A stretch of DNA of 64,000 nt from Halorussus amylolyticus (GTDB lineage Archaea; Halobacteriota; Halobacteria; Halobacteriales; Haladaptataceae). The notes under the pieces are model-generated. The model was not told the DNA's origin. It worked only from the letters and a program-made list of their open reading frames with translations, and did no database searches. The DNA lies in contig NZ_ML974132.1 in the NCBI RefSeq assembly GCF_004143485.2, positions 124,001-188,000 of the forward strand. Direction: 5' to 3'. Made by a program: the position numbers and the translations under genes. Below are positions 32,426-63,557 of the stretch, in pieces (the first letter of the stretch is position 1; every line of letters starts with the position of its first letter).

Positions 32426-32630
32426 CCCTTTCAGTCCACCCAGACGAAACTGCTGCCGCAGGCCACGAACCTCCCCAACCGATTCGCTCGCTTCGCTCGC
32501 TCATCCCTCGCGCGACGTTGGCTCGACCCCAAACCGCGGGGTCGAGCCAGCGCGCGCCGGGTGTCGGTGGCCGACCAGCCGGCGCGCTTCGCTCGATCTC
32601 GCTTGCACCAGCCCTGGCGGACTGAAAGGG
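32426..32630. repeat. Dispersed inverted-repeat family, copy A
   Basis: Outer arms CCCTTTCAGTCC (32426-32437) and GGACTGAAAGGG (32619-32630). Inside: the family block CCTCCCCAACCGATTCGCTC, TCATCCCTCGCGCG, and a hairpin 32520-32548 with 11-bp arms around the loop AAACCGC, followed by a GCGCGCCGG/CCGGCGCGC stem. The same block with the same loop but a different stem is at 61764-61792 (copy D). Confidence 0.75.
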
Positions 32631-47492: not shown

Positions 47493-47514
47493 GTGACAGT
47501 GAAGCGACCTACTC

Positions 47515-47730
47515 CCGGTACAACTGAGGACCGCACAGCACGCCACCGCACCGCGCCCCGTACCTCCCCGCGTCTCGCTGAACAACGTGAAGCGAGGCTC
47601 GGAAGACGCGGTTTGTCTTCCGGCGTCTCAGCGAGCGAAGCGAGGTGAGGCTCGTCGGAGCGTGCTCCGACGGCGTGCGCTTGCGCTCGCACAGCGAGCG
47701 CAAGCGCGGCGCGTCCCGTGGTCTGTGTAG
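47515..47730. repeat. Dispersed inverted-repeat family, copy B (left-type end)
   Basis: Begins CCGGTACAACTGAGGACCGC, close to the left end of copy E, then ACCGCACC and TACCTCCCC. Inside are perfect hairpins 47653-47672 (9-bp arms) and 47677-47707 (14-bp arms, loop ACA). The rest of the 47493-47803 gap is unremarkable. Confidence 0.6.
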
Positions 47731-59068: not shown

Positions 59069-59305
59069 ATGAGTCTCGTCACGGCCGTCGTCGTCTTCGT
59101 CGTCGGATTCCTCTCGGGCACCGTCGTCCGGTGGTTCGCCGGACTCGCCGCTATCGCGGCGCTCGTCCTCGTCCTGCTCGGCGCGACCACGCCCGATATC
59201 GGCCTCGTGAGCTACGTCCTCGAACGGTACTACCTCGGCAACGAACTCCTGTTTCTCTCGGGGTTCCTGTTCGGAATCGCGGCGAACGGGCAAGAAGAGT
59301 CGTGA
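59069..59305 (+). CDS. Small two-span membrane protein
   Basis: 78 residues; hydrophobic segments ~4-40 and 55-72, short acidic C-terminus. No family known. Confidence 0.55.
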   Translation: MSLVTAVVVFVVGFLSGTVVRWFAGLAAIAALVLVLLGATTPDIGLVSYVLERYYLGNELLFLSGFLFGIAANGQEES

Positions 59306-59383
59306 CGACGGGATTGCAAATCGACCAATCGCTCGCGGCTTTCCACCCGATTTCGCGACCTGCCACAGACCACGGGATGCGCC

Positions 59384-59489
59384 GCGCGTTCGGTCGCGCC
59401 CGCAGTGGCGCGACCGAACGCGCACGCGGGGAGGCACGGGGGCGCGGTGCGGTTGCGGGGCGGAGCTGTGCGGTTCTCATAGGTACCGG
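59384..59489. repeat. Dispersed inverted-repeat family, copy C (right-type end)
   Basis: Contains a 16-17-bp perfect hairpin (59385-59400 with 59407-59422, loop CGCAGT), then GGTGCGG and GCTGTGCGGTTCTCATAGGT, matching the right end of copy E. The remaining 59306-59620 gap also has a 16-base tandem pair (59531-59562). Confidence 0.6.
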
Positions 59490-59530
59490 AGGTAGCTAGC
59501 TTCACCGGAAAAACAGCGAACTGCGACAAA

Positions 59531-61664: not shown

Positions 61665-61803
61665 CACGTCACCTGTGAAACCGCACCGCGACCGCAGGCC
61701 ACATCCCTCCCCAACCGATTCGCTCACTCCCTTCGGTCGTTCGCTCATCCCTCGCGCGCTTTGGGCGCAACGCCAAACCGCGGCGTTGCGCCAGCGCGCG
61801 CCG
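61665..61803. repeat. Dispersed inverted-repeat family, copy D (left half)
   Basis: Begins CACGTCACCTGTGAAACCGC, then ACCGCAGGCCACATCCCTCC, CCAACCGATTCGCTC, TCATCCCTCGCGCG, and the hairpin 61764-61792 with 11-bp arms and loop AAACCGC, as in copy A. The right half of the element is missing. It occupies most of the 61518-61851 gap. Confidence 0.7.
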
Positions 61804-61851: not shown

Positions 61852-62958
61852 CTACTTTACGTCCACCCACTCGCCGCGCTCGTCGCTCTCCTCGATGGCC
61901 GCGAGCGCGCGCTGGACCGCGAGGCCGTCGTGGAAGTCGGGGTGGTAGTCGTCGCGGTCCTCCGCGACGGCACTCAGGAACTCCGCGTTCTCGTGGACGA
62001 AGGTGTGTTCCCACCCGATGACGTGGCCCGGCGGCCACCAGTGGTCCACGTAGGGGTCGGACTCGTCGGTCACGAGAACCGTCTCGTAGCCCCTGCTGTC
62101 GTCCCTGAGGACTTCGAGTTCGTTGAGGCGTTCGAGTGAGAACTTCAGGCTCCCCTCCGAGCCGTGGACCTCGATGGTGTGGTCGTTCTTGTGCCCGTTG
62201 GCGAATCGCGAGGCCTCGAACGTCGCCATCACGTCGCCCTCCAGTTCGGCCTGCGCGGAGTAGGCGTCGTCAACCGTGACCGGGCGCGTTTCGCCTTCTT
62301 CACCCTCGACCGGACGCTCGTCCACGAACGTCCGGAGGTGGCCCGACACGCGTTCCACGTCACCGACGAGGAAGCGCGCGAGGTCGATGGTGTGCGCGCC
62401 GAGGTCGCCGAGCGCGCCGCTCCCGGCCATCTCGGCGTTGTTGCGCCACGACCACGGGGCCTCGGGGTCCACCAGCCAGTCCTGCAGGTAGCGCCCGCGG
62501 AAGTGGTGAACCTCGCCGAGTTCGCCGTCCTCGATGAGGTTCTTCGCGTACCGAATCGCCGGGACGAACCGATAGTTGAACGCGGTCGCAGTCGGCACGC
62601 CCGCCGACTCGGCCGCCTCGGCCATCGCTTCGGCGCTTTCGAGGTCGTTGGCGAGCGGCTTTTCCGAGAGGACGGGCGTCCCGGCTTCGAGCGCCGCGAT
62701 GGAGGGTTCGGCGTGGACGTGATTCGGTCCGAGATTGTAGAAGGCGTCTACTTCGTCTACGACCTCGCGCCAGTCGGTCGCGGTCTGCGCGAATCCGAGT
62801 CGGTCGGCGGCGTCGTTCAGTGCCGCCTCGTCGCGGCCCACGAGGACGTGGCGTTCGACCGCCGGGGCCTCCGGGAAGAACATCGGCAGGCGAGCGAGCG
62901 CGTTCGCGTGGGCTTTGCCCATGAATCGGTAGCCGAGGACTCCGACTTTCAGCGTCAT
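61852..62958 (-). CDS. Gfo/Idh/MocA-family oxidoreductase
   Basis: 368 residues. NAD-binding start MTLKVGVLGYRFMGKAHANA; SEKPLANDL is the family EKP motif (catalytic Lys). GDLGAHTIDLARFLVGDV is the substrate-side His motif. It oxidises a sugar, inositol or related alcohol with NAD(P); the sugar isomerase at 54.9 kb could be a pathway partner. Confidence 0.88.
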   Translation of the reverse strand: MTLKVGVLGYRFMGKAHANALARLPMFFPEAPAVERHVLVGRDEAALNDAADRLGFAQTATDWREVVDEVDAFYNLGPNHVHAEPSIAALEAGTPVLSEKPLANDLESAEAMAEAAESAGVPTATAFNYRFVPAIRYAKNLIEDGELGEVHHFRGRYLQDWLVDPEAPWSWRNNAEMAGSGALGDLGAHTIDLARFLVGDVERVSGHLRTFVDERPVEGEEGETRPVTVDDAYSAQAELEGDVMATFEASRFANGHKNDHTIEVHGSEGSLKFSLERLNELEVLRDDSRGYETVLVTDESDPYVDHWWPPGHVIGWEHTFVHENAEFLSAVAEDRDDYHPDFHDGLAVQRALAAIEESDERGEWVDVK

Positions 62959-63103
62959 GTCGGTTTGTACTTCCGGCAGGGGCTTAGTATTTCAGGATTG
63001 AATTAATTTGTGTGGAGTTGGGTGGTGTGGGTTTGGTGTTTTTCCCGACCGCTTCGGCTTCTGTGAGAGATTTCCGACCGCTTCGACTTCTCGCACGGTA
63101 CAA

Positions 63104-63416
63104 ATGAGGACCGCACAGCACCGCACCCGCGACAGCCACACCCTCCCCAACCGATTCCCGCACTCGCGCCTGTCGGCGCTCGTCGGTCATCCCTCGCACG
63201 ACGTTGGCGCGGCATAAAGCCGCGCCTCCGCGCGCCGTGACGGAAAGTGGGGACTTTCGCGAATTTTCGTACTCCGGACGGCGCGCGCTGGCGCACCCCC
63301 CGTGGGTGCGCCCATGCGTGCGAGGGACGACTGAGCGAGCGACTGGAAGGAGCGAAGCGAAGGAGTCGGTTGGGGAGGCGTGTGGCTGTCGCGGGTGCGG
63401 TGCTGTGCGGTCTCAT
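63104..63416. repeat. Dispersed inverted-repeat family, copy E (full length, about 313 bases)
   Basis: Outer arms: 63104-63154 and 63366-63416 are near-perfect reverse complements. Inside, from left to right: TCATCCCTCGCACGACG (pairing with CGTGCGAGGGA on the right), a hairpin GGCGCGGC-ATAAA-GCCGCGCC, a stem GCGCGCCG/CGGCGCGC and a hairpin GGCGCACCC-CCGT-GGGTGCGCC. This is a multi-branched fold. The left block CCTCCCCAACCGATT matches copies A and D; the ends match B, C and D. Confidence 0.8.
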
Positions 63417-63557
63417 AGGTGACGTGCGAGTAGCGGTGTTGTCTCGTCGGGTCGTTCAAATCCGCAGAGTCATTCACCTCCATCTTCGCCTCTCGTTCGA
63501 AATCATCGCGTTCTCCTCTCGCTCAGCATCCCCACGCGACTCCCGAAGGGCGGTGGA

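Follow-up and report, generated by a model that had tools for sequence, protein, structure and literature searches.

What is the long inverted repeat that lies between two unrelated genes close to the end of a 64,000-nucleotide (nt) stretch of the Halorussus amylolyticus genome (contig NZ_ML974132.1, positions 124,001 to 188,000; hereafter the window), and how did it come to be there? The initial annotation described this element (E, window positions 63104-63416) as a complete, multi-branched inverted repeat of which broken or partially copied halves occur elsewhere. We found that E is a doublet, in which two copies of a repeat unit of ~100-160 nt stand head to head around a centre of ~43 nt. 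The inverted-repeat structure is real, with a fold energy of -153.9 kcal/mol against a mean of -77.1 kcal/mol for 100 dinucleotide-preserving shuffles, none of which equalled it (z = -20.1). Its outer arms (63109-63148 and 63373-63412) showed 93% complementarity, a second arm pair (63142-63158 and 63362-63378) 94%, and additional inverted repeats were present inside. E is also free-standing as described: it is intergenic, without convincing coding capacity, and lies between divergent genes for a Gfo/Idh-like oxidoreductase (61852-62958, minus strand) and a GNAT-like acetyltransferase (plus strand), both named from a reading of their translations. Because the conserved promoter of the GNAT-like gene lies beyond E, the element is probably outside the GNAT transcript.

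The outer box common to other copies places the true limits of the whole doublet at ~63094-63426, so that 63104-63416 is slightly too narrow. The box of the left unit (63094-63109, plus strand; CACGGTACAAATGAGG) has two mismatches to the genome consensus used in the box search and is followed by the left linker typical of ACCGC-like units (63110-63142, plus), which was delimited by alignment of same-genome copies. The left structured unit (63143-63236) has its G-rich strand on the minus strand, was recognised by our covariance model (R1) with 67.1 bits (E=1.4e-12) and gave an RNA fold z of -4.4; on that strand it comprises hairpin H1 (~63196-63235), hairpin H2 (~63153-63191) and then GGTTGGGGAG. 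The doublet centre (63237-63279) is an imperfect palindrome around TTTCGCGAA. The right structured unit (63280-63377; R1 81.5 bits, E=1.1e-15) carries its G-rich strand on the plus strand, with H1 at ~63282-63322, H2 at ~63326-63367 and again GGTTGGGGAG, and RNA folding yielded a helix with G.A mismatches on this strand and none on the opposite one. The right linker (63378-63410, plus, delimited as the left one) leads to the outer box of the right unit, an exact match in the box search (63411-63426, minus; CACGTCACCTATGAGA). The left end of E is closely flanked by a pair of direct repeats of 21 nt (TTCCCGACCGCTTCGGCTTCT, 90% alike) at 63042-63062 and 63071-63091.

Most copies of this repeat are solitary units. 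With E as query, 85 blast matches were obtained in its own genome on both strands, mostly covering one half of E only; an iterative profile search found ~55 units, and the 16-nt outer box occurred at 75 sites as opposed to one per strand for a reversed control. The genome contains ~90 units, with ~9 doublets included. On the C-rich strand a unit reads box, ACCGC-rich linker, CCTCCCCAACCGA, variable hairpin, CATCCCTCGCRCG, variable hairpin and GCRCGCGCC, and on the G-rich strand its near-universal core is H1, GAGG, H2 and GGTTGGGGAGG. We dropped the idea that the GGGGAGG-GTG stretch is coding, since steps in linker length break the frame in our reading of the unit alignment. Halves of E do occur elsewhere in the window (61707-61802 and 32471-32558, with weaker matches at ~59340-59490 and 47672-47730), as had been described, but they are the ordinary form and the doublet is a recurrent special arrangement. 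An origin of the halves by breakage or partial copying of a complete element finds no support: most copies are solitary with conserved ends of their own, and the doublets of other species show the same order and spacing again. All ten close pairs among the matches listed for H. vallis (genome G012) stood in the order -+, 125-135 nt from start to start, and the ~40-nt doublet centres are alike between H. amylolyticus, G006 and G012. Homogenisation of the two arms within doublets was not significant (P=0.30 and 0.11), and the near-perfect arms of E are therefore the extreme of a range. The only units with identical alignment rows in the H. amylolyticus genome (G000) are L010 and L011 (C10:2593-2739 and C5:253015-253161), a pair which may reflect a larger duplication or an overlap of contigs.

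Both hairpins of the unit are backed by compensatory changes. For this analysis, sequences were gathered through the conserved single-stranded motifs and not through pairing. Over 22 pairs in an alignment of 25 whole units, 90.3% of cells were paired compared with 77.6% after shuffling, and the covariation score of 0.377 (shuffled 0.162) exceeded all 500 shuffles and all slid controls. For H2 alone, 94.6% of cells were paired (shuffled 74.5%), with a score of 0.633 (shuffled 0.254; 0 of 500 shuffles as high) in an alignment of 43 sequences, from which two of 45 that broke the pairing rule had been omitted; here slid controls reached at most 41% paired cells. H2 follows one of two repeating rules, either two Watson-Crick pairs and two mismatches, or two pairs and one mismatch. 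On the G-rich strand 257 of 270 mismatch cells in the 4-periodic class were G.A or A.G, and 180 of 186 in the 3-periodic class were purine-purine (A.A, A.G or G.A). The loop of H2 was mostly a GNA triloop.

These patterns also bear on which molecule is folded. In H1, read on the G-rich strand, there were 44 G.U against 7 A.C combinations, and selection thus appears to act on this one strand and not on a symmetrical cruciform. RNA parameters formed H2 in 71 of 130 units on the G-rich strand versus 28 of 130 on the opposite strand; with DNA parameters H2 formed in only 19 and 15 of the 130, respectively, so that the strands were not separated. The computed folding energies thus favour RNA over single-stranded DNA as the folded molecule, although a single-stranded DNA form would still be compatible, as tandem G.A pairs may be scored too low by the DNA parameters.

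Of 146 Halobacteriales genomes searched with the covariance model, at up to 29 listed matches per genome, 63 contained the unit, representing 27 of 57 genera, with the core present in Haladaptatus, Natrinema, Halococcus, Halorussus, Halosimplex, Haloterrigena and Natronomonas among others. When more matches were listed, four Halorussus congeners had 128, 83, 103 and 46 copies; within the same genus G013 had two and G009 none. Halorussus plasmids also carry the unit, and the best matches there have no annotated feature beneath them. Outer boxes vary from lineage to lineage but are alike inside a species or genus, and an exact 20-mer of the local outer box was absent from the other genomes. Viral contigs and phage collections gave no unit match, and Rfam 15 gave no match above the gathering score but only weak ones (E >= 0.12). 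A search of the literature for the motif letters or for a haloarchaeal description returned nothing describing the repeat, and the family appears to be undescribed so far. Rfam 15 and the papers searched lack a short element that has a strictly patterned helix, shows strong compensatory change and reaches 128 copies per genome, with 27 of the 57 sampled genera carrying it.

The explanation we consider probable is that the repeat is a non-autonomous, REPIN-like structured genomic element whose spread depends on a factor acting in trans. This factor, a protein of the host or of a mobile element, would recognise both the lineage-specific box and the G-rich strand, the latter folded either as RNA or as DNA made single-stranded. 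It would have distributed single units and doublets among intergenic regions, where old copies would afterwards persist at their sites. A unit 3' of purL, present in one orientation in five Halorussus genomes and not detected in the other congeners examined, is among the observations in favour of this reading, as are the dispersal at high copy number, the fixed order of the doublets and the differing outer boxes of the lineages. Since some congeners have almost no units, either the factor or the entire set of copies seems to be gained and lost, and possibly the repeat has an RNA-level role besides its spread. More tentatively, archaea would thereby possess a REPIN-like system without RAYT: a haloarchaeal family of structured mobile repeats, undescribed so far and extending across the order, in which a protein recognises the folded G-rich strand with its periodic tandem-G.A hairpin. 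The near all-or-none presence among congeners makes comparison of carriers with non-carriers a direct route to the partner protein.

Several observations weigh against such spread. We observed neither a transposition event nor a target duplication nor an exact empty site, and the intergenic flanks at purL are too diverged to be aligned. Most same-genome copies are ~11-30% diverged, with no clear recent burst apart from the one identical pair. No candidate enzyme emerged: Y1_Tnp, the RAYT domain, was detected in 11 of 24 carrier genomes versus 9 of 14 genomes that have few units or none, and reverse transcriptase (PF00078) in none of these 38 genomes, by which a retroposed element was rejected. 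Further, units were found 3' of purL in H. amylolyticus, H. vallis, G002, G008 and G015, always in the same orientation; such retention at one site across species is also compatible with a host function. At the site of E itself, 29 relatives showed no unit within ~0.8 kb upstream of the GNAT-like gene. The same-site occurrence in distant genera that would have spoken against mobility was therefore not seen among them, but local gene order is rearranged, so that no exact empty site can be read from these flanks. In H. vallis a doublet is present ~0.8 kb upstream of the GNAT-like gene, beyond another gene.

The alternative that survives best, possible but in our view rather unlikely, is that the unit serves the host as a structured RNA, mainly as an element of the 3' untranslated region (3'-UTR) acting in termination, processing or mRNA stability, or else as a small-RNA family, whose copies are kept by selection and whose doublets serve two neighbouring transcripts. 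The strand-specific, RNA-like covariation supports the earlier suggestion of a non-coding RNA to this extent, and in the five species with a unit behind purL the G-rich strand begins tens of nucleotides after the stop codon. By crude gene calls, and with the units of doublets counted separately, the H. amylolyticus genome has 29 units between convergent genes and 20 that follow a tandem gene in the same direction, compared with 18 between divergent genes and 14 antisense in tandem regions. These counts tilt slightly toward 3'-UTR positions without deciding the matter, as the bias between sense and antisense in tandem regions is weak (20 vs 14). The presence of only 0-2 copies in close congeners would be odd for a general host function, no unit was detected 3' of purL in the other congeners examined, which are the majority, and E itself has divergent genes on either side and precedes the conserved GNAT promoter.

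An origin from the ends of IS200/IS605-type elements, as in haloarchaeal PATEs, or as a true RAYT-dependent REPIN, with mobilisation as single-stranded DNA by a Y1 transposase, appears highly improbable. The repeat does resemble REPINs (PMC3116915) and PATEs (PMC3119063) in its high copy number, the folding of its single strand, its inverted doublets and its lineage-specific ends, but the RAYT link was rejected, as Y1_Tnp is missing from the H. amylolyticus genome and its presence does not correlate with the repeat over the 38 genomes. None of the 13 tnpB loci of H. amylolyticus and H. vallis had a unit beside it (no R1 match better than E=0.058), strand clustering of units, examined as a sign of replication-linked transposition, was absent along three chromosomes among the matches listed, and H2 forms more readily with RNA parameters than with DNA ones. 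As the links to RAYT, reverse transcriptase and TnpB all fail, we prefer spread by some other trans-acting factor. Least probable of all is a large classical miniature inverted-repeat transposable element (MITE) with ~50-bp terminal inverted repeats, a DDE transposase acting in trans and solitary copies as its broken halves: inverted ends, intergenic position, the lack of convincing coding capacity, several similar doublets and a MITE-like dispersal fit this earlier suggestion, but solitary units with their own conserved ends are far commoner than doublets, structure and covariation reside in the unit, and neither target duplication nor transposase could be shown, in an analysis that did not extend to the full set of IS ends.

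The bacterial REPIN model (PMC3116915) suits the build of the repeat, in its folded unit, inverted doublets and high copy number. Bacterial REPs, BIMEs and REPINs are high-copy, intergenic sequences predicted to fold as single-stranded DNA or mRNA and form regularly spaced inverted doublets (PMC2817692, PMC3116915). The haloarchaeal unit is likewise high-copy, intergenic and palindromic with inverted doublets at fixed spacing, but it is larger (~100-160 nt), has two hairpins of which one is a periodic G.A-mismatch helix, shares its core among many genera and has no link to RAYT (Y1_Tnp). PATEs of Haloquadratum are transposase-free, palindromic, multicopy elements with heterogeneous ends, related to the ends of IS605-type transposons (PMC3119063). 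Our unit, also haloarchaeal, shares these features except that no unit was found near the TnpB genes sampled, a distinction drawn from the PATE description and not from direct sequence comparison. SMR-A of Haloquadratum (~110 bp, many copies, unrelated to known transposons, no target duplications reported; PMC3119063) is similar in size, copy number and lack of relation to known transposons, and differs in that the solitary haloarchaeal units described here have no inverted terminal repeat. The enterobacterial RU-1 is a 127-bp, intergenic, MITE-like repeat (PMC2759123). The haloarchaeal unit resembles it in length, intergenic position and MITE-like character, by description and not by sequence, and comes from a different domain. 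We know of no G.A helix in RU-1.

Besides E, the window contains further units. One solitary unit at 61665-61802 (minus) has its box at 61665-61680 (plus) and its structured part at 61707-61802 (minus; R1 96.1 bits, E=7.2e-19). Another at 32471-32558 (minus; R1 77.7 bits, E=6.9e-15) has a different outer end (CCCCTTTCAGTCCC). The stretch 59339-59490, with a box at 59475-59490 (minus, one mismatch) and an R1 match of 23.7 bits (E=0.0036), is probably a second unit type with the same outer box. At 47514-47730 a degenerate box with three mismatches and a weak model match (~47672-47730, E=0.032) suggest another, decayed unit. Two further unit types, represented by L070-L105 in the H. amylolyticus genome and by 59339-59490 in the window, share outer box and linker and differ in their cores (GCCCCGTGCCTCCCCGC-hairpin-GGCGCGTCCCGTGG, and AAGAAGCCCTCAGTC...CACACCTCCCCAC). 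The repeats also generate spurious open reading frames (MRTAQHRTRDSHT..., MRPHSTAPATATR...) at 59151-59499, 63003-63483 and similar sites, which could be annotated as hypothetical proteins; the repeat thus accounts for spurious short reading frames in haloarchaeal intergenic DNA. At L013:1362-1494, a second dispersed repeat family of ~130 bp, with dozens of matches of ~75-88% identity in congeners, abuts a unit that has the outer end CCCCTTTCAGTCC.
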